Shown here: piece by piece, positions 12,147 through 48,030 of the stretch
Numbering within the stretch: the stretch's first letter is position 1
Layout: the number at the start of each line of letters is the position of its first letter
Assembly (NCBI RefSeq): GCF_001971705.1
Contig: NZ_CP019327.1
Coordinates: forward strand, 248,001 to 312,000
Direction of reading: 5' to 3'
Length of the DNA stretch: 64,000 nucleotides
Source: Natronorubrum daqingense
Lineage (GTDB): Archaea > Halobacteriota > Halobacteria > Halobacteriales > Natrialbaceae
Made by a program: the position numbers and the translations under genes
Notes under the pieces: model-generated
Told to the model about the DNA's origin: nothing
What the model saw: only the letters and a program-made list of their open reading frames with translations
Database searches by the model: none

Positions 12147-12256
12147 TCGTCACTGTCTTCGGACGTTGGTGGCTTACGTGTACCGGAGACAACCGTCCCC
12201 GAGGCGGCCAAACAATTTATCATAGTGGGATAAGCTTGTGTTGCTATCCAGTAAGT

Positions 12257-13396
12257 ATGTTGCCACGTCGTCCCTCTGAGCGAGATGGTTCCAAACCGGA
12301 TAGCCGAGCAATTTCGCCGGTGATCGGCGTGGTGCTGATGGTCGCAATCGTCGTCGTGGTGGCCGCCATCGCTGGCGCGATGGCCCTCGATATGGCTGAT
12401 ACCTCCGAGCCGCGACCAAACGTTGCGCTCGAGGCCGAACCCGATGGGGACAGTACAACCTACGAAGTCAGCCACCAGTACGGTGAGGAACTCGAAGGCG
12501 ATATTACGTTCCAAAGCGCCGACGACTCCGAGGAACTAGACGATGTAGAATTGATCAGTCCGGGCGGTGAGACCTCGATCGACGTCGAGGACGCTGACAT
12601 CTCCGAGGTCGACGTCATCTGGACTGGCGAGGATGGCACCGAGTATATCGTCGATACGCTGACGCTCGAGCCATATATCGAAACAGAACACGGACTCGAG
12701 TTTGGAACCTACGATGACTGTGAGGCGATCGGGTACGATCACGCAGATTCTGAAGAACATGACGACATTGAAATTGATGAGGGCGTAGACGTTGCCGATG
12801 ACACTGTCCACTGCGATATTAATGCAGACGCCGAGGTTGAAATCGAAGATGGATACACTCTCGTTGGAAACTTAGCGATCGAGGATCTCGAGGTGGAGAA
12901 TGGAACTGTCGAAGGGGACATTCGTGCGACTGAGGAGGTCGAACTCGAGGGTGATGATGACGATGACGATGAAGCGAAAGTTGATGGCGATATCGAACTC
13001 GATGGAACTGGCGAGGAGAACGAATTCGAACTCGAAGACGGGCATGTAACAGGTTCGATTGATGCCCATGGTGTCGATGAATCGGAATTAGAGATCGAGG
13101 ATAGTACGGTTGACGGGGCAGTCGACATTCACGTTGAAGGTAGTGAAGAGGCTGAATTAGAGATCGATGATAGTACGATTGAGGGGCCAGTTGAAATCTA
13201 TAGCGAGGATGAAGTAGACCTCGAAATAGATGGAGAGATCAAGGATTCAGTTGTTATTTTCAGTGGTGACGAAGTCGAACTCGATAGCCAAGGTACTGTC
13301 GCAGGCTCAGTTGACATCTATAGCGACGGTGACATTGATGTTGAAGGTATTAATGACGAGTCGGTTGAAGAGCACAGTGAATCTGACTTCGAATAA
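12257..13396 (+). CDS. Type IV pilin-like protein with acidic beta-helix-like repeats
   Basis: The N-terminus DSRAISPVIGVVLMVAIVVV is the archaeal pilin/archaellin class III signal, cut by PibD-type prepilin peptidase, with one assembly helix. From about residue 170 to the end the protein is an acidic quasi-repeat. Turns such as EDSTVDGAVDIHVEG, DDSTIEGPVEIYSE, EIKDSVVIFSGDEV and GTVAGSVDIYSDGDI recur every 18-25 residues. This suggests a solenoid of the bactofilin/right-handed beta-helix kind, though no family match is claimed. ATG 12257 is taken rather than an upstream GTG or TTG. Length (379 residues) is about twice that of usual archaeal pilins, so it may be a surface fibre or adhesin. 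Confidence 0.75.
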   Translation: MLPRRPSERDGSKPDSRAISPVIGVVLMVAIVVVVAAIAGAMALDMADTSEPRPNVALEAEPDGDSTTYEVSHQYGEELEGDITFQSADDSEELDDVELISPGGETSIDVEDADISEVDVIWTGEDGTEYIVDTLTLEPYIETEHGLEFGTYDDCEAIGYDHADSEEHDDIEIDEGVDVADDTVHCDINADAEVEIEDGYTLVGNLAIEDLEVENGTVEGDIRATEEVELEGDDDDDDEAKVDGDIELDGTGEENEFELEDGHVTGSIDAHGVDESELEIEDSTVDGAVDIHVEGSEEAELEIDDSTIEGPVEIYSEDEVDLEIDGEIKDSVVIFSGDEVELDSQGTVAGSVDIYSDGDIDVEGINDESVEEHSESDFE

Positions 13397-13442
13397 GCTA
13401 CAGAGCGGAAATCAGACTACTGGCTCCAACTACACGTGACGC

Positions 13443-14192
13443 TTAGTTCTCTGTGTCCGTCTCTGCAACACTCGGGTGCATCGTCGGCTGCTCGTCCAAC
13501 GGCTCCGAAAACGCCTCGAGCATCCTCGCTCTCGCCTGTTCGTCACGCTCGAGGCGTTCGTCGTCGTCGATTTCCTCACACCCCGGCGGCACGTCCCGGT
13601 CGCGGCCGGTGAAGTAGCCCTCGGGGGCGACCCAGTCGTGGTAGAAGTTCGCGTCCGAGTCGTGAATCACCGCGAGGCCGACTTTCGCGCCGTGGCCCGC
13701 CGCGACGATGGACTGGTGGGGTTCGTTGGCCAGTCGCCCGGCCGCGTAGATGCCGTCGACGGCCGTTCGCCCGCCGTCGTCGACCGAGACGTAGTGCTTG
13801 CTCCCGCGTTGGAGTCGACCCACGTCGAGCGGAACGAGGTACTCGCTGTCCGACCACGACGCTGCGATCACTCGCCGCGCCTCGAGTGGCTCGCCACCGT
13901 CGGTCTCGAGGATGAACCCTTGCTCGAGGTCCGTGTCGTCGATCGCTTCGATTCGCGTCACGTGACCGAGTTCGAACGTCGCGCCCGCGTTTCGGGCCTG
14001 TTCACGGCTCAGTTGCAGGTAGCGTCGCGCGTCGATACCATCGGGATAGCCGGGGTAGTTCTCGAGGCTTGCGTTTCGCGCGAGGATCGATTCGCCCCCG
14101 TCGACGACGAGGGTGTCCAGTCCGGCACGGGCGGTGAAGATCGATGCGGCGAGGCCGGCGACGCCGCCACCGACGATACAGACGTCTCGCAT
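13443..14192 (-). CDS. Thioredoxin-reductase-like flavoprotein without the redox disulfide
   Basis: The 249-residue protein begins with a classic FAD-binding GGGVAGLAASIFTARAGLDTLVVDGG. It has NASLENYPGYPDGIDA and the second FAD motif VDGIYAAGRLANEPHQSIVAAGHGAKVG, as in thioredoxin reductases. The central NAD(P)H domain with its CxxC pair is missing: a span around residues 110-130 joins the two FAD halves directly. It is therefore unlikely to reduce thioredoxin by the normal mechanism. Related haloarchaeal flavoproteins exist, but the electron donor and acceptor are unknown. Confidence 0.8.
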   Translation of the reverse strand: MRDVCIVGGGVAGLAASIFTARAGLDTLVVDGGESILARNASLENYPGYPDGIDARRYLQLSREQARNAGATFELGHVTRIEAIDDTDLEQGFILETDGGEPLEARRVIAASWSDSEYLVPLDVGRLQRGSKHYVSVDDGGRTAVDGIYAAGRLANEPHQSIVAAGHGAKVGLAVIHDSDANFYHDWVAPEGYFTGRDRDVPPGCEEIDDDERLERDEQARARMLEAFSEPLDEQPTMHPSVAETDTEN

Positions 14193-37397: not shown

Positions 37398-37622
37398 ATG
37401 TCCGAAGTCCCACCAGCGCCACGGCGAGCGAGTGATGAAGCCAGAAATCTACCCGAAGATACGACGAGTCTCGAGGTGTATTGCCATCGCCAGCACAAGG
37501 GCGAATGGATGAAAGAAGCTGAAGAACAGGGATGCAGTCTTAGTCAGTACGTCTATGACCTAGTGCAAGAAGCTCGCTGGCATCGCCAAGACGGCGACGT
37601 CCCGGTGAATGTAGAGTACTGA
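37398..37622 (+). CDS. Small DNA-binding-like protein, short paralogue of the right-end protein
   Basis: The 74-residue protein contains SLEVYCHRQHKGEWMKEAEEQGCSLSQYVYDLVQEARW, nearly the same pattern as residues 25-61 of the 169-residue protein at 46717. A beta strand followed by two helices, with a G-x-SLSxYxxDLV turn, resembles ribbon-helix-helix proteins. It stops where the other copy continues into a coiled coil, so it may be a shortened remnant. It could regulate the island or act as an excision factor. Confidence 0.7.
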   Translation: MSEVPPAPRRASDEARNLPEDTTSLEVYCHRQHKGEWMKEAEEQGCSLSQYVYDLVQEARWHRQDGDVPVNVEY

Positions 37623-37632
37623 ATACTGATCT

Positions 37633-38172
37633 CTATGTGCTCGAGTCTGTGACTGCTGGTTCTTCTCCCGGGATTTCCTCTTTAGGAACTATTGCTAGCT
37701 TTGAATCATTCTCCTGAGCAGCTTTACATCGACTAAAGAGCGCGTGAACTCGGCCAATACCCTCAGTGAATTCAAACCCGTCCTCATCTTGCTCATCACG
37801 GAGTTCACAGTAATGTAGATACGATTTTAATCGCCAGTCACTAGCGACTGGCCACCAAACCGCCGATGGCTCTGCATCCATCTGGCTCTCCCAAGTTTCG
37901 ATAAGATCACGAACAAAAGGCGAAAGTTCATCCCCTGATTTTCTGAGGCGGAGTTCGTCATCAATCGCATCTTTGAGGAAAGCAGTTTGTTCGATTGATG
38001 TCGATGATGAGGACTCGGCTTCTACAAGCTCCTTTAGCGCCCTCAGATCTTCTTGGTAGATCGAAACGGCATATGCGGGCCCATAGGTATCTGAGGGGAA
38101 GTGTTCATGCTGAGGTACATTCGGTCCTTCATGTGGTTCATTATTGCCAAAATTATCATCGAATATTCCCAT
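37633..38172 (-). CDS. Island protein of unknown function (179 residues)
   Basis: The frame gives an acidic soluble protein with no membrane helix or signal. It begins MGIFDDNFGNNEPHEG and contains two helical parts (YQEDLRALKELVEAESSSSTSIEQTAFLKDAIDDELRLR and WRLKSYLHYCELRDEQDEDGFE). No family is recognised. It ends 10 bp from the stop of the small DNA-binding gene on the opposite strand. Codon use is AT-richer than the core chromosome. Confidence 0.6.
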   Translation of the reverse strand: MGIFDDNFGNNEPHEGPNVPQHEHFPSDTYGPAYAVSIYQEDLRALKELVEAESSSSTSIEQTAFLKDAIDDELRLRKSGDELSPFVRDLIETWESQMDAEPSAVWWPVASDWRLKSYLHYCELRDEQDEDGFEFTEGIGRVHALFSRCKAAQENDSKLAIVPKEEIPGEEPAVTDSST

Positions 38173-38421
38173 GACTGATACTCATATTCAATAGAAATTA
38201 AACTTCTGGTCATCGATAAATCTGAATAGACTTGGATCCCACTGGCGAAATCAACCCCACAATATCGGGTAACACTAGAATTATGATAGTAGGCTAAAAG
38301 TCAACTACATGGACACTCCGCAATCACGTGATGCTGATCCCCTGGTCTGTAAACTACGGTCTGCCCATCTCGAGAGTGGCTCTATTGGGAAGAAATCGAC
38401 ATTATATTGCGACATATAACA

Positions 38422-39903
38422 GTGGATTCAGATATCATTCTCAAGGACGAGGCGGATTCGCTTGAGCAGTATTGCCAGTCGCTAAAAGATCTAACTCACC
38501 TTCAGGAGTTCGAAGAAACCTATACGGTAGCAAGACGTACAGCAAAGACTTGGACCTCATATGGCCAATATTTGCCTAGCGAATTGCTTAGCACGGAATA
38601 TAGGTGGACAAGGATTGAGTGTGGGCGCTTCTTTGTATATTCCTTCTCAATCCTTGAAGATATTTATCCGAAACTCTTAGCTCAGGAATTAGGTGAGAAG
38701 CCGAAGAAAGCAGAGAATTATCTATCCGGGATAAGTAAAGCACAACTCGAGGAGCTATTGTATCATTTTGGTATTATTGATGGGAAAACAAAACATGAGT
38801 TGGGGAAAATTCGGAAACGTCGGAATACATTCGCACATGGACATGATCCTCAGGAAAATTATTTTGGTGATATAGATCTCTTATCTGCTATTGATCGACG
38901 TTATAACGTGATCTCTGATTTTATCGAAAGAGTCTACGATAATTCACTTCCAGATATTGCAAATTATGTTTCAAAGTGTTACGAAGTCCCGATCAAACGT
39001 CATGATAGGCTTCAAGACTATGCAACTGCTCAGCTCCTAAAAATTTATAGAGATCTGGAACCAGAGATGGCTGCGTTTCCATCGGGGTTTCAAGAGGAAG
39101 TCAGAGAAGACTTTGAAGAAATAATGGTACCTCTTCCTATCAATATTGAAGAAGAGCTTGAGCGGAGGGGTTATGATCCAACCACGATCTCAGAGGTTGT
39201 TCCCCCTGCTCGCCGACCTTTAGAACTAAAATCAACTGAATATTCTATAGATGACACCTATATTGATATCACGCTTACTGATTATCAGGAGCTAATTGGC
39301 TGGGACCATAATTTCGAGCTCTCATTCCATTTTGAGTTGCTAAATTACTATGCATATAATGGGAAGAGGACAGAGAAACCACCAAAACAGGCTACTGCAC
39401 TTTTACTGATGGATGGAACGATTGTCGATACTGAGCAGATATCACCAGTTCCAGAAGTAGGTACTCGCTGGAGCGTGAAATTGTCGTACCACCTAGGAGA
39501 AGAGTTCTATGCAACCCCCACAGTACCGATTCGATACGGAATTATTGTCGAAGGAGAGGATCGATATCATATGAGTATTCGTGACGAGTCTATCCTTAAT
39601 ATGGTCCCAGTCTCACGTGAATTCACAGAAGCTAAATCCCGACTACATGGGTTGACTGTAAATGATCAATCACGAGAAGAAGTGATTAATACCCTTAGAA
39701 ATGTGAGGTCTAAGTTGAGATATATTGAACAAACCGTTAACCGGTTTAACTCTGATGTAAATATGTGTGACGTAAATAATTTAGAAGAGATGGACAAAGA
39801 TGAAATTCTCGAGGAGATAGAAGAATTATCAGGTACTATCGAGGATTACCATCGAGTATTTGGGCTAGACAAAGAGCAGCAGGTGAGAGAAAACAACCAT
39901 TGA
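38422..39903 (+). CDS. HEPN-like protein (candidate RNase) of the island
   Basis: The protein has about 493 residues and is very AT-rich in coding sequence. Its N-terminal third is helical. A GKTKHELGKIRKRRNTFAHGHDP segment contains the R-x4-H motif (RNTFAH) of HEPN ribonucleases. A middle beta-rich part (STEYSIDDTYIDITLTDYQEL ... VGTRWSVKLSYHLGEEFYATPTVPIRYGI) and a C-terminal coiled coil (RSKLRYIEQTVNRFNS) follow. GTG 38422 is the chosen start (a TTG at 38407 is possible) after a TATA-like TTATAT. HEPN domains are common toxins or effectors in anti-phage systems. The next gene on the strand is a DUF262/DUF1524 nuclease. Confidence 0.6.
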   Translation: MDSDIILKDEADSLEQYCQSLKDLTHLQEFEETYTVARRTAKTWTSYGQYLPSELLSTEYRWTRIECGRFFVYSFSILEDIYPKLLAQELGEKPKKAENYLSGISKAQLEELLYHFGIIDGKTKHELGKIRKRRNTFAHGHDPQENYFGDIDLLSAIDRRYNVISDFIERVYDNSLPDIANYVSKCYEVPIKRHDRLQDYATAQLLKIYRDLEPEMAAFPSGFQEEVREDFEEIMVPLPINIEEELERRGYDPTTISEVVPPARRPLELKSTEYSIDDTYIDITLTDYQELIGWDHNFELSFHFELLNYYAYNGKRTEKPPKQATALLLMDGTIVDTEQISPVPEVGTRWSVKLSYHLGEEFYATPTVPIRYGIIVEGEDRYHMSIRDESILNMVPVSREFTEAKSRLHGLTVNDQSREEVINTLRNVRSKLRYIEQTVNRFNSDVNMCDVNNLEEMDKDEILEEIEELSGTIEDYHRVFGLDKEQQVRENNH

Positions 39904-40015
39904 ACAGGTTGCACATCTGGCCAGCTGTATACGCGAACGAACTCAGACGGTTTACCAGTACCAACACGATCAAACTGGACAACGCTTACATCCAATCCGT
40001 TTGAAACTGTTTCTC

Positions 40016-42055
40016 ATGTCCTCACTGGGGCCGGACCAGAATATGTCGGAACCGCTCGAAAATAACGACTATCGCCTCTATCGACTCTTGGATGGCTATG
40101 TCTTCCATATTCCCGAGTACCAGCGTTTCTATTCATGGAGTAAGCCACATTGGGACGATCTGTGGAGCGACCTCCTCAACATCATTGGCGAAGACCGGGA
40201 TCACTACATGGGAACCATCATCTGTAAGGATGAACAGAAGGCCATTGAAACAGAGGAGTATACCGCTAACTATCGAGAATACGGTATCGTGGACGGGCAA
40301 CAGCGATTCACAACCCTTGTTCTTCTGGTGAAGGCAATTGTCTCTGACTACGAGTCGATCAATCCTGAGGAACTGTCTGCAGACGCCCGAAAACGGTACG
40401 AGAAACTCCCCATAGAGGACAGCAAGAAGTTGTTTGTCCAAGATTCAACCATGGGACCTACCAATGAGGGCTACGAGGTCAGAAATAGACTCAAACTCCA
40501 GCAAGAGGATAATCGGATATTCAAAGAAGTCCTCCGTGATGGGACCGACACGGCCACCATATCTACACCCTCGCAGCAACGGCTTGTTGATGCGTATCAG
40601 TTCTACAAAGATCGCCTTGAACAACTTCGAGAAGAACAGTCTTCTATCGAATATCTGCATCAGATTGGGCGACTTCTATCTGGTATTCAATCTCTCCAAT
40701 TCATGCTCTATACGATTGATAACCAGGCACAGGCGACACTCATTTTCGAGTCAATCAACGACCGAGGAAAGGGGCTGAGCAACCTCGATAAGACAAAGAG
40801 TTTCCTCATGCACAAGGTGTATCTCACTCGTTCCAATGATCCTTCAGAGGTTACGATCAATGAGGTACAGATGCGGTTCGGTGAAGTGTACCGTTCTCTC
40901 CAAACGATAGATACCAAAGATCGGACCTCTGGAATCAGCGAAGACCGGATTCAGAGGTATCATTACATCGCAACCATCGATAGGTCTGTGAATAGTAAAT
41001 ACATCAAGAGTGAGACTGGACGGCGCAACTATACTCTGCCATCGGGAGCAACGGTCTACCTGGAGGCTCTCAAATGGCACTTTAGCCAGCTACATAATGA
41101 CGCAGACTTCGGACCCTACGAATTGTATCCTCGGAACTGTATCGATGAAATTGACTGGTACACAGATGGCCTCAAACGATATTACTCCCACATGGAAACG
41201 ATTGCGACTTACGGAGATGATGAAGACCACGATTCCGACCTTGCCTGGGAATTAACCAAGCTATTTTCACTCGGTCGTCTTGGGAACTTTTACCCGCTGT
41301 TGCTTGCACTTTGGGACGAATACAACTCTAATCAGCTTACATATGACGAACTCTATGAAATTCTACAGCTTATTGAGGTGGCTTCTTTCAGAATCTACTC
41401 GATAGCAGGAAGGCGGTCAGATACTGGAGAATCAAGATTCTACCGTTTAGCCAACAAAATCGCAACCGATGATAAGGACGCAGACTGGATCATCTCAAAG
41501 CTCAAAAATAATATTTCATCGCTGGAATACGAATTCACTGAATCACTCCGTGACTCTAACGCCTATAAGAGATTCCGGCGTAAAGACATCCGTTACTTGT
41601 TCTACTCGTATGATTTGCATCTGAGAAAGGAACAAAAAGGCGGTGCAGCGCCAACCATAGAGCAAGCCGTCGGAAACGCTGGAAACGATTATAGCATTGA
41701 CCATATTCGGCCCAATGATACATCTAAATTGGATCTGAACGAAATAGAGGAGCAGCAACATGGGGAAATCAAGCACAGTCTTGGAAATCTAACGCTAACC
41801 ACCGGCCCCAGAAACGCTGCATGGAAAAACCAACCATACACCGTGAAGCAAGAACGAGTCCAGGAGGACAAACCTGACTATAAGAACTCTGATTTCCTGA
41901 TGACACGTGAGTTAGCACGAAAGTACGAAACCTGGGGCGAAGACCAAATCAACGACCACTTGGATGACATAATTGAATACGCTGAGAAGCGATGGAATCT
42001 CGATGCAGACGTGCGGGAAAAATATGCTTCGATCAAACCGTCGGAAATCGATTAA
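40016..42055 (+). CDS. GmrSD-type DUF262/DUF1524 restriction nuclease
   Basis: The 679-residue protein (from ATG 40016; ATG 40043 also possible) has the DUF262 start DGYVFHIPEYQRFYSWSKPHWDDLW, with YGIVDGQQRFTTLVLLVKAI as the nucleotide-binding D-G-Q-Q-R motif. The C-terminal DUF1524 HNH-like nuclease reads DYSIDHIRPND followed by HSLGNLTLTTGPRNAAWKNQPYTVKQERV. This is the single-chain layout of GmrSD and SspE-like enzymes, which cut modified or unmodified phage DNA with NTP stimulation. No phosphorothioation genes were seen nearby. It lies 112 bp after the HEPN-like gene on the same strand. Confidence 0.92.
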   Translation: MSSLGPDQNMSEPLENNDYRLYRLLDGYVFHIPEYQRFYSWSKPHWDDLWSDLLNIIGEDRDHYMGTIICKDEQKAIETEEYTANYREYGIVDGQQRFTTLVLLVKAIVSDYESINPEELSADARKRYEKLPIEDSKKLFVQDSTMGPTNEGYEVRNRLKLQQEDNRIFKEVLRDGTDTATISTPSQQRLVDAYQFYKDRLEQLREEQSSIEYLHQIGRLLSGIQSLQFMLYTIDNQAQATLIFESINDRGKGLSNLDKTKSFLMHKVYLTRSNDPSEVTINEVQMRFGEVYRSLQTIDTKDRTSGISEDRIQRYHYIATIDRSVNSKYIKSETGRRNYTLPSGATVYLEALKWHFSQLHNDADFGPYELYPRNCIDEIDWYTDGLKRYYSHMETIATYGDDEDHDSDLAWELTKLFSLGRLGNFYPLLLALWDEYNSNQLTYDELYEILQLIEVASFRIYSIAGRRSDTGESRFYRLANKIATDDKDADWIISKLKNNISSLEYEFTESLRDSNAYKRFRRKDIRYLFYSYDLHLRKEQKGGAAPTIEQAVGNAGNDYSIDHIRPNDTSKLDLNEIEEQQHGEIKHSLGNLTLTTGPRNAAWKNQPYTVKQERVQEDKPDYKNSDFLMTRELARKYETWGEDQINDHLDDIIEYAEKRWNLDADVREKYASIKPSEID

Positions 42056-42147
42056 ACAGGCTATCAACTACACGAATCAATTACCCCGCTTACGCGGACA
42101 TAGGCCAACGATCTACTCTCAAACAATGTCGTCAGAACGTTCTCGCA

Positions 42148-43227
42148 CTAAAAGTTACTCAATGTTCGCTGGTAGACTTCATATCGGTCAACTGCGTGAG
42201 CTGCTCCTTCTGAGACGCCTTCTTCACAGGATTCTCCATAGTATCTTAGTTCTCGTTCAAACCTATCAATTCCAAATGCGCAAATTAGCGCGACCTCTGC
42301 AGTAGTGATTGCAGAGTATGCTAAAAGTCGCATTCCCCTATCAAGAAACTTGACATATCCTGGACCATACAGCCTGCTGAATATCCCACCATGCTCATAG
42401 TTTGCCCATTCTCTGAGTAACTTGAAAACGTGGTAGAATGTGGAGGTATTTCGACCGCTGTCCCAACTACTGACATTTTCTGCTTTACTGTATACCGCTT
42501 CCATTTGGCGTTTATAGTAGTCTGCATACGTATCTTCGTGCTGACTACGAAGACGGTCTTTCAACTCTTCATCTTCAACACCTAAGAAATACGGAAATGG
42601 TTTCCTGAAATCAAAGAATTGGCTCGAGGCTGGGTCAAAATTGAACGGATAACCATAGAGACAGCGAGCACGTGAGGCCATAAATTGGTTAGAGTGCACG
42701 TCTAAAGTTTTCTGATGCGATATAGATAGGTCTGAATTATCCTTTGTGCGGATTATCGCTGAAGCAGATTTGTAAAGTGCGTAATAGCACATCGTAATCC
42801 GCCATTCGGCTGTTTTCATCCTTTCTTCCGCTCCGGCATCAACAGGGGCGCTTAAACAATATTCATCTCGCCAAGCATTGGTCAAATTACGAAAGGCCTT
42901 CTCTTCATAGATTCTGTCAGAGCCCGAGCGATTTCGGAAGAAACCTAAAAGCTGACCTTTATTGTCTACTGCTTGTTCGAGAGTTGCATAGATAATATGG
43001 TCTTTTAACCGTTCGACATCGCGATCACTGCTTGCTTCAGCTAAGTTCAAATCCCAAATTTTCAGTTCATCTGTATCAATCTCTGTATTAGGTGCAACGG
43101 AATTCCCTATACCCATGTTTTGACCTCGGTTATATTCATAGGCCCAATAATATCCTTTTGAAATAGTCTTGAAAAACTGACCCACTGGTATAGCCTGCTC
43201 TACAAATCTACGTGCAGTATGCGGCAT
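42148..43227 (-). CDS. Island protein of unknown function with HEPN-like helices (359 residues)
   Basis: The soluble 359-residue protein is rich in helices. The stretch AEWRITMCYYALYKSASAIIRTKDN resembles helix 1 of HEPN domains (YYALYKSA), followed later by LSISHQKTLDVHSNQF. No clear R-x4-6-H motif is seen, so HEPN is only a weak suggestion. It lies 63 bp after the DUF6884-like gene on the same strand, so the two probably share a transcript. AT-rich codon use fits the island. Confidence 0.55.
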   Translation of the reverse strand: MPHTARRFVEQAIPVGQFFKTISKGYYWAYEYNRGQNMGIGNSVAPNTEIDTDELKIWDLNLAEASSDRDVERLKDHIIYATLEQAVDNKGQLLGFFRNRSGSDRIYEEKAFRNLTNAWRDEYCLSAPVDAGAEERMKTAEWRITMCYYALYKSASAIIRTKDNSDLSISHQKTLDVHSNQFMASRARCLYGYPFNFDPASSQFFDFRKPFPYFLGVEDEELKDRLRSQHEDTYADYYKRQMEAVYSKAENVSSWDSGRNTSTFYHVFKLLREWANYEHGGIFSRLYGPGYVKFLDRGMRLLAYSAITTAEVALICAFGIDRFERELRYYGESCEEGVSEGAAHAVDRYEVYQRTLSNF

Positions 43228-43290
43228 TTCACTTAACTGTATCTACTATTATCTAATCTCTTTTCATTGTCCTGTGTTATTATATTGCGG

Positions 43291-44019
43291 CTATGACATG
43301 TCCCATACACTTAGTCCACGTACTTCTTTGGGACTTACTTGGAGGTGTTTGAGGTGTCGGCAGTCTCTGATATTCTCCGCTAAGGTAAGTAGTTCTCTCC
43401 CGCGTAGTTCAAGCCATGTCGTCCCAAGATGGCTCCGTTCAGACTCGGTTGCGGGAATCCAATAGCAGTCTCCGATGAACTCCTTGCTCCCTTTAGAGGC
43501 GAACGCAAACGCAGCCGTCTCTTCCGACATTGAGGTCAACGCCTCCTGAGCAGCAATCAAATACTTGGTCCCCAATGCGACGAAGACTAAGTCATAGCCT
43601 TCGGCAAGGATTTTCTCGAGGTCTTGAGGAATATTCTTCTCCCAACTGACGGCGGCTACCAGCTCGCTGTTAGTCATCTCTTCTATGTCTAACCCCATCC
43701 TCTCTGCTCGTTCTCGAACTTGCTCAATCTCGCTGAATGTACACTCGTAGGAGGGAATTTCGGCCTCAGAGTCGAGCACACCAAACCCAGCCGAGATGAT
43801 ACACCAATCGACGGTAGCGATCTTTGAAAGCTGTTTTACGGCAGATTGAATATGCCCATGTTCGCGCCCCGTATACAACTCGGCAGCCGACGCGACAGAA
43901 CTAGGGAACTCTTCAATTAAGATTTCCCGATTTTCTTCGTCGACCAGTCTGCAGTCAGCTATCGCATCGTGTCGCTTGCTTCCAGAACAAGGAGACACAA
44001 CGAGGACGTCCATCACCAT
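43291..44019 (-). CDS. DUF6884/YaaA-like protein
   Basis: The 242-residue protein starts with MDVLVVSPCSGSKRHD. It has the pattern AAELYTGREHGHIQSAVKQLS ... WCIISAGFGVLDSEAEIPSYECTF, like DUF6884 and some YaaA-type proteins. A late GSKEFIGDCYWIP completes the part that can be compared. The biochemical role is not established. Family members occur next to phage and defence genes, and a nucleotide or base-modification role has been proposed for relatives. It faces the GIY-YIG gene across a 73-bp divergent promoter region. Confidence 0.6.
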   Translation of the reverse strand: MVMDVLVVSPCSGSKRHDAIADCRLVDEENREILIEEFPSSVASAAELYTGREHGHIQSAVKQLSKIATVDWCIISAGFGVLDSEAEIPSYECTFSEIEQVRERAERMGLDIEEMTNSELVAAVSWEKNIPQDLEKILAEGYDLVFVALGTKYLIAAQEALTSMSEETAAFAFASKGSKEFIGDCYWIPATESERSHLGTTWLELRGRELLTLAENIRDCRHLKHLQVSPKEVRGLSVWDMS

Positions 44020-44092
44020 CGTCTTTTCTTATTGCTAGCAAGGGAACTATAGCATGAAACTCTTTGTGTGATTACCTATCAACACCATACGT

Positions 44093-44803
44093 ATGGGACG
44101 AAGAGATGACCTCGATCGATTCTACCAGCTAATGGGTAACCTCGAGGAACAAGTTGGAGGAACACAAAAACTTAAAGACTGCACTGGGTACATGGATTGG
44201 CCCGATCGAGGTGTCTATTTCTTTTTTGCCCCAGACGAAACTCGAGCCTCGAGTGATCAGCTTCGAGTTACCCGTGTCGGGACTCATGCTGTTTCTGAAG
44301 GAAGCAGCACATCACTGTGGAATCGCCTTCGAACCCATCGGGGTGCAATGAGTGGGACATACGAAGGAGGTGGAAATCATCGAGGCTCTGTATTTCGAAA
44401 ACGGGTCGGTGAAGCAATAATCGACCGCGACGAATATCAGGAGGAATATCCCGAGTGGGGAGATGGCTCGAGCGCCGGCCGAGAACTTCGTCTCGAGGAA
44501 CTCGAGATGGAACGGAAAGTGAGTGAGTATAACCGTGATCTTCCGTTCCTCTGGTTAAACGTAGACGATGAACCCAGTGCCAAGAGCCAACGGTCCTATA
44601 TCGAACGAAACGCGATTGCACTGCTCAGTAACTACCAGAAGACAGCGATTGATGCCCGTTCTGATGGTTGGCTCGGAAAACACAGTCGAAGTGAGAAAAT
44701 CTGTCAATCAGGACTCTGGAACGTGAACCATGTGGAGGAGAACTATGATCCGAATTTCCTCGATCAATTAGAACGGAAAATCGAAGAGACCGATTCGATC
44801 TAA
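44093..44803 (+). CDS. GIY-YIG-like nuclease of the island
   Basis: The 236-residue protein has the GIY-YIG fold signature. GVYFFF (residues 40-45) and RVTRVGTH (58-65) form the two strands, with RLRTHRG (78-84) giving the catalytic Arg/His helix, then GSVFRKRVGEAI. The later YIERNAIALL (169-178) supplies the catalytic Glu and Asn. The central insert GAMSGTYEGGGNHRGS is typical of a defence-associated subgroup. It probably cuts DNA. It is followed by a Fic/Doc-like gene. Confidence 0.75.
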   Translation: MGRRDDLDRFYQLMGNLEEQVGGTQKLKDCTGYMDWPDRGVYFFFAPDETRASSDQLRVTRVGTHAVSEGSSTSLWNRLRTHRGAMSGTYEGGGNHRGSVFRKRVGEAIIDRDEYQEEYPEWGDGSSAGRELRLEELEMERKVSEYNRDLPFLWLNVDDEPSAKSQRSYIERNAIALLSNYQKTAIDARSDGWLGKHSRSEKICQSGLWNVNHVEENYDPNFLDQLERKIEETDSI

Positions 44804-44951
44804 AACATAGGATCAAAATCAGCTCTGGTCCTTTCAAGGATTACGTAAACAGAGGCCAATTTTAGCAGTCAAAATAGTTTGACGGATCGCTTCGATAAAA
44901 GCGATACCATGAGAGAAAGCTATTTCGTGGTGAGTGTTCTGATTTTATTTC

Positions 44952-45818
44952 GTGCCGGAGCATCTGACGTACCACCGCCGTTTGGATGATGGGACAGTGC
45001 TTTCCCTGCAATTTGTTCATCCCGATCAGGAGCGGGTTGAGAGACAGGAAGAAGGGCTACGTCAGGATGCCAATACAAATGATGTCCAGCGCTTCGAATC
45101 AGAAATCCAGTCCCAGACTTATGATCAGCAGATCCATGCTCTCTATACTGCAGAAATATACCCTCGCGAATTTCCAGACGAAGATATAGATAGCTTATCT
45201 CATAGAGAATCACTCATCATAGATTCCCTCTTGAAAGCGTTCAGGACTATTGAAGACCGGTGGGAAACACAAGGAGACCCGTTAAAGTGGTACAAGCGAC
45301 CAGACCTCTCTCGAATTATTGAAGAAGTATCTGAAACACAATGGAGACAACCTGTTCCCGATGTCGCTGGGCGTCTCTTATCAAATCTTATCTTTGGCCA
45401 CGGACTGCCGAATGCTAACCATCGGAGTTCGCTTAGCTTCGTGGAAACGTACCTAAGCACCTTCGAACCCGAATTTGAAATTCCGGATACAGGCGTCCGA
45501 GGTGAATGGTTTGATTGGTCTGAACAGTATGTACACGAATCTAAGCGGCTTCTCATGCTATCACGGAAAGCCCCGATGTTTCAATACCTCGAAGACTGGG
45601 GATGTGAGTCAGTTATTCGGAAAAACGATATCGTCGTTAGCTTTAAGGAGTATGATATTTCGGTAGAAGATCCCCGATCTCGTTTCCGACAACAACACAA
45701 GGAGTTGAGTACTGAATTTGTCTACCAAGTTCTCGAGCGGACGGAATACGACTCGCTCATTGGTGCGGAGGATCCTGGAAAACAGGTGTTTCTCGATAGA
45801 ATATCGGGAACTCAGTAA
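44952..45818 (+). CDS. Fic/Doc-like protein of the island
   Basis: From the GTG at 44952 the protein has 288 residues. The segment FGHGLPNANHRSSLSFVETYL (H150 to R158) matches the Fic/Doc motif HxFxxxNxR, closest to the Doc form H-x-F-x-D-A-N-K-R, with Leu for Phe and Asn for Asp. Fic and Doc enzymes transfer AMP or phosphate to a target protein and serve as toxins. No antitoxin-like partner was identified next to it. The N-terminal start DGTVLSLQFVHPDQE is unrecognised. Confidence 0.65.
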   Translation: MPEHLTYHRRLDDGTVLSLQFVHPDQERVERQEEGLRQDANTNDVQRFESEIQSQTYDQQIHALYTAEIYPREFPDEDIDSLSHRESLIIDSLLKAFRTIEDRWETQGDPLKWYKRPDLSRIIEEVSETQWRQPVPDVAGRLLSNLIFGHGLPNANHRSSLSFVETYLSTFEPEFEIPDTGVRGEWFDWSEQYVHESKRLLMLSRKAPMFQYLEDWGCESVIRKNDIVVSFKEYDISVEDPRSRFRQQHKELSTEFVYQVLERTEYDSLIGAEDPGKQVFLDRISGTQ

Positions 45819-46012
45819 TCCGGAAGATCAGACAAGGCTCGAGCCTTCCTCTGAATACGCTCACTTACCTCTGGGCGCATTTCTGCCCGTTCACGAACCC
45901 GTCGGTATGCCTTATCAGCGTCCATATTAGAAGAAATGATCTGGAATCTCTTAAGGATATGGATTGCAATATCGTCCTTGAGAATCGGCAAAACATTTTG
46001 GATTATTCTGGA
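45812..46012 (-). pseudogene. In-frame continuation of the YwgA/DUF4065-like gene beyond an amber stop
   Basis: After the TAG at 46013-46015 the same frame runs on for 66 residues (SRIIQNVLPILKDDIAIHILKR ... RKARALSDLPDY) to a TGA at 45812-45814. The sequence is helical, charged and protein-like, and its end overlaps the converging Fic-like gene by 7 bp. It could be the lost C-terminus of the upstream gene. Alternatively, a separate 37-residue protein could begin at the ATG at 45925. Confidence 0.5.
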
Positions 46013-46507
46013 CTAATCCTCCGCTTGGTTATTGAGCGTATTTACCCGATTCATCTCTTCAAATACCTTCTCAACATAATCCTGCTTTTCGTTCTTCTCT
46101 TCGATAGTCATTTGAATGGCCTCCGTTGGAAGATCTTTTTGACAATCTCCGTTCTGGAGTGTACGAATATACGCTCTCAATGTCGCCGCAACCTCCAACC
46201 AACGGACTTCACGATTAGCAACAAACTTAACGAAATGTTCAGAATCGAATTCACTGATAGAGTCTTCATCTGGTGCAATAGAATCTAAATCTGAATAATA
46301 ATCCTGCGCGAGGGGAGGAGAGTATGGGCCTCGAAGATGCATTCCGTAAGAATACGGATGTTCAAACCCAAAATCGGAAGAGAGATAAACAAATTTCTGG
46401 AGGCGTAGTCGGTCATCGAAGTTGTCTAAGTTAAATTCCCATTCCATCTCTTCCTCGAGCGTGTCCAAAAATGCCTGGAGTGTTGAAAGACTCGACTCAG
46501 AACCCAT
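46013..46507 (-). CDS. DUF4065/YwgA-like protein
   Basis: From the ATG at 46507 the protein has 164 residues and ends at a TAG. The core FDDRLRLQKFVYLSSDFGFEHPYSYGMHLRGPYSPPLAQDYYSDL matches the YwgA/Panacea (DUF4065) pattern of LQKFxY, then Y-x-x-GPYS. Such proteins are common antitoxin or accessory proteins in phage defence and toxin systems. The reading frame continues past the TAG, so the natural protein may have been longer. Confidence 0.7.
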   Translation of the reverse strand: MGSESSLSTLQAFLDTLEEEMEWEFNLDNFDDRLRLQKFVYLSSDFGFEHPYSYGMHLRGPYSPPLAQDYYSDLDSIAPDEDSISEFDSEHFVKFVANREVRWLEVAATLRAYIRTLQNGDCQKDLPTEAIQMTIEEKNEKQDYVEKVFEEMNRVNTLNNQAED

Positions 46508-46664
46508 GTTAGTAAAGAGTCTCCTCGTTATCATTGTTAAAGGTATCCCATATTTGATCCTGTCTTCTCAGATGTCGTCTCTATGATTTTCCTCTGAGGA
46601 TGGCAGCCCATCTTAGCACATACTCTTTCATAGACCGCGCCCTGTGGCCACAGACCCTAACGAA

Positions 46665-46686
46665 TTACCAGTAGTTATAATATTAA
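46665..46686 (+). promoter_or_regulatory. Probable promoter of the right-end operon, with a motif shared with the left end
   Basis: TTACCAGTAGTTATAATATTAAGG is AT-rich and lies about 35-50 bp upstream of the ATG at 46717. TTACCAGTA recurs at 37298 and 39952 in the island. A GGAG ribosome site lies about 10 bp before the ATG. Confidence 0.4.
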
Positions 46687-46716
46687 GGCGACCATCTATC
46701 CTATTGGAGTTACACA

Positions 46717-47226
46717 ATGAGTGACAAGTATGACGAGGGCCGACAAGCTAGCCAAGAATGGGCGAGATTAGGCGAAGACACCGAGCGAGCGGAAGTCTAT
46801 TGCCACGAAGATCACAAGACAGAATGGAAGAAAGAAGCTAAGCATGAGGGACAAAGCCTCAGCCGATACCTTTACGACCTCGTTCAGGAGGCTCGAGCCT
46901 ACCGGGAAGGTGGCCTCCCGCTGATCGCATCGAAAGACGAGCGGGTCGAAGAACTACAATCCCGCATCGAAGAGTTACAGGACGAACTCTCTCGAGCCCA
47001 AGAAGAACAGTCCGGTAGAACACGGATCACAGTGGATGATCTCACAGAGGAAGTTCTAACCGACCAGTACCAAACACTCGACGAACTCCTAGAGGACGTC
47101 AAGGCAACTGAGGATGTATCTGATCATCTTCGTCGATGTCTCGAAGAACGACTCTATTCCCTCGCAGAGGATAAGAAAGTCGAGTTCCAACGAGGACATG
47201 GCTGGCGGTTCGCGGAGGGTGAATAA
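46717..47226 (+). CDS. RHH-like DNA-binding protein with coiled coil, next to integrase
   Basis: The 169-residue protein has a ribbon-helix-helix-like segment (AEVYCHEDHKTEWKKEAKHEGQSLSRYLYDLVQEARAYR, residues 25-63). A long coiled coil (DERVEELQSRIEELQDELSRAQEEQ) and a C-terminal winged-helix-like part (TEEVLTDQYQTLDELLEDV, KKVEFQRGHGWRF) follow. It ends 1 bp before the integrase start, so the two are one operon, as is usual for haloarchaeal integrative elements. It may control integration or excision. Confidence 0.75.
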   Translation: MSDKYDEGRQASQEWARLGEDTERAEVYCHEDHKTEWKKEAKHEGQSLSRYLYDLVQEARAYREGGLPLIASKDERVEELQSRIEELQDELSRAQEEQSGRTRITVDDLTEEVLTDQYQTLDELLEDVKATEDVSDHLRRCLEERLYSLAEDKKVEFQRGHGWRFAEGE

Positions 47227-47227
47227 G

Positions 47228-47862
47228 ATGCCAGCCGAACCCAACGAATCCAAGATCTACGAAAACGAGCCACTGGTCGAAGCGAGAAAACGCTGAACTC
47301 ATACAGTCGTGTACTCCGTGAGTTCTTCTACGATCAATTTCCGGACCTCGAGCCCCAGGACGTCGAAGTTATTCATGTTGAGGATTACGTCATGGCCCTC
47401 AATGAGCGTGACCTCACCCAGAACTCAGTAAAGAAATATCTGGAGGTCCTGTCGAGCTTCTACAGCTATGCGATGAAACGACCGCACTTCGAGGGGATCA
47501 CTGGTAACCCCGCAGCGGTGGTCATGGAAGAGATTCCACGAACATACCGCGACCGTCCCGACTGTGCGACGTGGGAGAGTGCCTGCAAAATCATCCAATA
47601 TATGCCGGATCCTCGCGACAAGACCGTCGCGATCGTTCTTGCAAAGACTGGCTGTCGTCTTCTCGAGGGACTCTCGATTCGAGAAGAGGATCTGATGTTC
47701 GAAGAGGGGTTCATCAGGCTCCGGAATCGAAAAGGAGGGAGACAAACGGTAGTTCCCGTCGACGATGAGACGATCAACGCCGAGTGGGACCACGGCGAGA
47801 ATCGCGAGCAAGTACCAGAGAACGCCGTCTATCCCCTTGAACATCGAGTAGCTGGCTTGTAA
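47228..47862 (+). pseudogene. Broken tyrosine recombinase (integrase)
   Basis: The ATG at 47228 opens 22 residues ending YENEPLVEARKR at a TGA (47294-47296). The natural continuation is in another frame from 47296 (NSYSRVLREFFYDQFPD). It gives the SAM-like N-terminal domain and the start of the catalytic domain with GCRLLEGLSI (catalytic Arg) and NRKGGRQTVVPV (Lys strand). The frame ends ENAVYPLEHRVAGL before the HxxR and Tyr motifs. One frameshift plus a C-terminal deletion makes it inactive unless a second copy acts in trans. Confidence 0.85.
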
Positions 47863-47999
47863 ACACTTGGTCAGGTTAGAGTCTCAGCTGAGGCGCTAAA
47901 AATCACGCTGATTACTCCTATCGAATGTTACATTGAACCGTTACTGCCAGATGTTCGTGTGGGAAATGATTCTGTGACCTCTCATTGTAGATCAAGGAA
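47863..47999. other. Remnant sequence between integrase fragment and right repeat
   Basis: This 137-bp AT-rich stretch shows no gene or clear integrase C-terminus in any frame. It leads directly into the 31-bp repeat. Confidence 0.5.
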
Positions 48000-48030
48000 T
48001 GGCACCTGTAAATCGATGGCCTCGGCACTC
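48000..48030 (+). repeat. Right attachment-site repeat (31 bp)
   Basis: Identical to 37253-37283. After it the sequence returns to GC-rich chromosomal composition (ATAGGGCTCGTCACAACCG...). Confidence 0.9.

Follow-up and report, generated by a model that had tools for sequence, protein, structure and literature searches.

Modular pilins, in which a short linker connects a small pilin module with a bulky additional domain of a kind not peculiar to pilus biology, show how one simple filament gains many functions. The published survey of these proteins is bacterial: besides PilB and PilC of Streptococcus sanguinis it covers more than 1,200 bacterial proteins, with several different modules on one base, but it used the bacterial motif IPR012902 and is silent on archaea (PMC8179133). 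A further relevant case is ComZ of Thermus thermophilus, a pilin fold bearing a triangular beta-solenoid rod, which is argued to be at the pilus tip and binds DNA via lysines (PMC6561018). In haloarchaea, the known bactofilins are the halofilins, which act on cell shape, HalB being found at negative curvatures in disks (PMC12186497). Here we describe a gene of Natronorubrum daqingense, within a window of 64,000 nucleotides (the whole stretch of DNA that was analyzed), whose family points to the same tinkering in haloarchaea: a bactofilin-type beta-helix grafted onto an archaeal pilin base, which in other species bears FG-GAP repeats. This would place outside the cell a fold known from the cytoskeleton. 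The open-licence papers that we searched contain no description of a bactofilin-pilin fusion or of haloarchaeal beta-helix pilins. We consider it moderately probable that the product is an archaeal modular type IV pilin showing a rigid, acidic, bactofilin-type beta-helix on the pilus or the membrane.

The gene (12257-13396, + strand, as are all its parts below) runs from ATG to TAA within the limits given in a preliminary description, and encodes a Pilin_N/bactofilin fusion of 379 aa. Its first 18 residues (12257-12310) form a positively charged leader with a predicted prepilin peptidase cut after A18 (R17-A18 / I19-S20, followed by SPVIGVVLMVAI). This RA/IS sequence at residues 17-20 has the charged residue at -2 and the G/A/S at -1, before a hydrophobic helix, that define archaeal prepilin peptidase sites, and it is akin to the RAVS cleavage sites of PilA4-6 in Haloferax volcanii (PMC4371748). 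Two profiles agree with it, Pilin_N (Pfam; residues 17-81, E 1.8e-14, above cut-off) and TIGR02537 (NCBIfam; E 8.1e-10). The hydrophobic alpha-1 helix, or H-domain (residues ~19-46; 12311-12394), is identical at 19 of 29 positions to a PilA-type H-domain, which in H. volcanii is needed for pilus formation (PMC4371748). In the AlphaFold2 model, built with 23 family rows (mean pLDDT 82.9), this helix (21-46) is followed by the strands of a beta-sandwich headpiece (residues ~56-136; 12422-12664), and the best Foldseek match to the model is 8fj5, the H. volcanii type IV pilus (E 8.6e-5). The same structure ranks first for the model of a canonical relative (L040), with ~130-138 columns aligned in these comparisons. 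In signal, H-domain and headpiece the window protein is thus like the PilA adhesion pilins of Haloferax and Natrinema (8fj5, 8gi2, 9myg), but those stop after the headpiece as chains of 145-165 aa with no beta-helix, whereas the window protein continues. It does so through a linker of low confidence (residues 142-151; 12680-12709; pLDDT <50) lying between two well-predicted parts, each with its own Pfam domain, which is the layout of modular pilins. The class III pilin-type base proposed in the preliminary description is supported, and its view of a secreted or surface protein is what such a signal and base would predict. Upstream, an AT-rich acaatttatcatag noticed by eye at 12210-12226, ~35-45 bases before the ATG, lies where a haloarchaeal TATA box sits.

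Bactofilins are three-sided beta-helices of short turns; they are cytoplasmic, membrane-associated cytoskeletal proteins that polymerize head to head and tail to tail. The acidic beta-solenoid that makes up most of the C-terminal part of the window protein (residues ~171-373; 12767-13375; ~8 recognizable turns) resembles them (PF04519; PDB 6ria, 2n3d) in a profile match above cut-off and, by prediction, may share their short-turn beta-helix; the preliminary description had proposed a possible beta-helix of this type. It differs in that a class III export signal and a pilin base take the place of a cytoplasmic cytoskeletal location, and in the Cys-capped ends seen in relatives. The Bactofilin match (residues 170-248, E 1.1e-6) exceeds the gathering cut-off by only 1.3 bits (29.2 versus 27.9). 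No bactofilin structure was among the top 50 Foldseek matches of the full-length models of the window protein and L040, and the family sequence profile reached only E 0.03-0.06 against the solved bactofilins 6ria and 2n3d, so the assignment leans mainly on the Pfam profile. The solenoid itself is predicted with confidence, with strands in a regular pattern over residues 171-373 at pLDDT mostly 90-98, and in L040 (mean pLDDT 89.5) the strands recur every 16-19 residues. One subunit's beta-helix would be a short rod, estimated at about 4-5 nm.

The composition of this solenoid is extreme: D+E amount to 39% and K+R to 1.3%, with a pI of about 4.05 and a charge near -87, consistent with the suggestion in the preliminary description that its acidity suits high salt. 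Such a composition, with low-complexity runs such as DDDDDD, might by itself produce a turn-like pattern in a disordered acidic tail, an explanation that we regard as highly improbable. Besides the predicted order and regular strands, VxGx[VI] turns occur at residues 202, 218, 242, 264, 285, 308, 324 and 348. There are 6 copies of the extended turn motif, whereas 5000 shuffles gave 0.4 on average and never more than 4. An HMM trained on the solenoids of relatives only, with the window protein left out, gave the window solenoid 47.3 bits, the best of 1000 shuffles -0.2 and the reversed sequence 12.3; the HMMER composition-bias correction within the 47.3 bits is large (37 bits), which makes the comparison with shuffles the more reliable figure. 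Finally, less acidic relatives retain the same repeats. The acidic solenoid is more than a composition effect, and a disordered tail with no repeat fold, which the preliminary description had named as the outcome that would overturn it, is excluded at the level of structure prediction.

A search for proteins of the same two-part layout, also proposed there, uncovered a family. An alignment profile search of 392 genomes of the order gave strong matches (>120 bits over most of the profile), all with this layout, in 27 genomes (~1 in 14) from five families; in congeners of the window species it gave no match beyond the pilin part. A contig search named only Halorientalis salina and Haloparvum sedimenti as carriers, and the family was found neither on plasmid records by tblastn nor on viral contigs. 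In the 23 members that we read and aligned, the window protein included, Pilin_N is present throughout and Bactofilin in 19 (E <= 0.01). Both domains exceed their Pfam cut-offs in the window protein, and this recurrence argues for a modular pilin. The extreme acidity, by contrast, is not general to the family: solenoid D+E is 18-27% in most relatives and 35% in L037. Solenoid length varies widely, and L055, L059 and L061 total about 500 aa, which suggests that turn number changes freely; their solenoids are far longer, extending ~340 residues past the start of the first Cys pair. Another variation concerns the module as a whole. In L062, the same kind of Pilin_N headpiece bears an FG-GAP repeat module in place of the beta-helix, as would be expected of modular pilins, and lends weight to that reading. 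L063 and L064 appear to share this order of headpiece and FG-GAP module with L062, the one of the three that was scanned for domains.

The cysteines of the family bear on whether these beta-helices could assemble into a polymer. Between headpiece and solenoid, an N-side cap segment (12713-12814) carries a Cys pair that is invariant in 23/23 members (Cys155 and Cys186 in the window protein), presumably forming a disulfide. At the C-terminal end, 22/23 members have another pair; the exception is the window protein, in which both cysteines align with valines (Val362 and Val370; residues 362-370, 13340-13366). This joint loss fits a disulfide pair, and the existence of N- and C-side pairs, the latter lost together, is a further point for a modular pilin. 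The pairs at both solenoid ends of relatives look like caps, which suggests closed ends, and because both ends look capped, end-to-end polymerization of the bactofilin kind is disfavored for the family. We weighed in this light the possibility that the class III helix is simply an anchor, and that the beta-helices polymerize on the outer membrane face into a stiff, shape-giving lattice, comparable to what is reported of halofilin B in Haloferax. The bactofilin type of the solenoid and the shaping of haloarchaeal cells by halofilins speak for such a lattice, and in the window protein, which lacks the C-side cap, the C-terminal end may be free. Nevertheless, the family seems made with closed ends, and a solenoid net charge near -87 works against tight packing unless salt is high, so that we judge a membrane-tethered external bactofilin doubtful. 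Less probable again is a full exoskeleton, in which class III-anchored beta-helices would assemble laterally or end to end into a stiff, salt-dependent polymer, either along a pilus or on the outer face of the membrane. The stiff surface fibre imagined in the preliminary description thus meets a mild objection in the capped ends of relatives, although the window protein is the member in which the idea is least excluded, because its C-side pair is absent.

Comparison with other haloarchaeal bactofilins also weakens the idea of an external lattice. The window protein is like the halofilins HalA and HalB of H. volcanii in being a haloarchaeal protein with a bactofilin domain. However, the bactofilin-domain proteins that we read from eight Haloferax genomes (genus g70, recognized as Haloferax by its S-layer protein, three genomes matching at 72-80% identity) have different N-termini: one type is ~299 aa without a signal, the other, of ~396 aa, begins with a Sec-like signal and ends in membrane helices, and none has the class III signal seen in the window protein. 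To the family profile, these genomes gave pilin-part matches only. In view of these layouts and matches we reject orthology of the window family to the Haloferax bactofilin proteins read here, and with it HalB orthology, a judgment that rests on the genomes. The window genome also encodes a protein of 293 aa (L009) that is similar to the 299-aa type of Haloferax, beside which, and beside the bactofilin of L007, the window protein appears from its sequence to be a third kind. The L007 product (L007:1309-1893), from the same genome, is small and lipoprotein-like; its N-terminus is of a twin-arginine-like kind, and its bactofilin domain scores 43.4 bits.

The genomic setting gives the pilin/beta-helix gene no obvious partners. 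It stands alone between coaBC (Flavoprotein and DFP domains) and an FAD/NAD oxidoreductase gene, and a pattern scan of the window and 22 related loci revealed neither a T2SSE-type Walker A motif nor a second class III signal nearby. An all-against-all comparison of 13-kb neighborhoods of the relatives found no conserved operon partner beyond synteny with one genome of another genus in the same family (G381). There the order is coaBC, a MoCF-domain gene, the pilin/beta-helix gene, an IucA/IucC gene and the oxidoreductase gene, and the encoded protein shares 28-30% identity with that of the window and keeps the C-side cysteines. These neighborhoods bear on another explanation, that of a surface protein comparable to those of the bindosome, in which a rod that binds a ligand or cations is displayed via the class III route and has no pilus role. 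Substrate-binding proteins of Sulfolobus are indeed displayed by class III signals (PMC4371748), and the Asp/Glu array of the solenoid could bind divalent cations. However, relatives have no conserved neighbor, transporter or other, and the window family conserves a true pilin headpiece, whereas bindosome proteins are not thought to be pilin-derived (PMC4371748), and we find this explanation unlikely.

The history of the locus is probably one of loss. The closest congener (G003) shares 98% identity with the window in its coaBC protein and lacks the interval (12191-13459), having about 186 bp in place of about 1.27 kb. Between coaBC and the oxidoreductase gene, other congeners have an IucA/IucC gene (G002, G005, G009) or a MoCF-type gene (G001). 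The low GC3 of the gene (0.53, and 0.445 in the solenoid part, against 0.74-0.88 in its neighbors) and the cleanly empty interval of G003 prompted us to consider a recent lateral gain, which we did not adopt, a family member being at the same place in G381; that copy is also low in GC (about 0.53-0.61 versus 0.69). Because this syntenic member belongs to another genus, differential loss from an older gene order is the simplest account of the congeners. An insertion hotspot at this interval is possible in view of the low GC3. Across the loci compared (window 12151-13468; L102-L106 and L130), the contents of the interval differ: empty, IucA/IucC, MoCF-type or pilin gene.

Machinery for a modular pilin is encoded elsewhere in the genome: three ATPases of the T2SSE type and a single A24 prepilin peptidase score over cut-off, and there are other PilA-type pilins. 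Together with the H-domain near PilA, the confidently predicted solenoid and the type IV pilus as best Foldseek match of both models, this supports the modular pilin reading. Against it we counted the lack of a pilus gene nearby by pattern, the absence of bactofilins from the Foldseek top 50 and the narrow Bactofilin score. Domain layout, family, predicted fold, and the peptidase and assembly-ATPase genes are thus the tool-supported parts of the following scheme. Sec would export the precursor, and the prepilin peptidase would cut it after A18. The hydrophobic helix would then either remain in the membrane or become part of a type IV pilus, as one of its minor subunits and probably at the tip. 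The headpiece would hold the C-terminal beta-helix outward as a monomeric display module, a spacer or binding rod with no cytoskeletal polymer, and with a possible role in contact or adhesion. Bacterial modular pilins (PMC8179133) and ComZ (PMC6561018) serve as working models by analogy. The window family differs from the former in its archaeal Pilin_N base and bactofilin-type module, and from ComZ in that the ComZ solenoid interrupts the pilin fold ahead of its last beta-strand, whereas the window solenoid comes after that fold. A DNA receptor similar to ComZ is disfavored: where ComZ uses lysines, the window solenoid has almost no K+R and a strong negative charge. Genes of this family are short, orphan and naturally missing in close relatives, which makes them clean test objects for module function.

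Elsewhere in the window, a low-GC island (37600-48000; GC 0.42-0.49) is probably a defense island. It contains a GmrSD-like gene (40001-42055; PADLOC HEC-06, 1.2e-61), a DpdC-like gene (43291-44019), a PDC-M57B gene (44093-44803; 4.7e-78) and, by eye, an integrase-like ORF (47392-47862).
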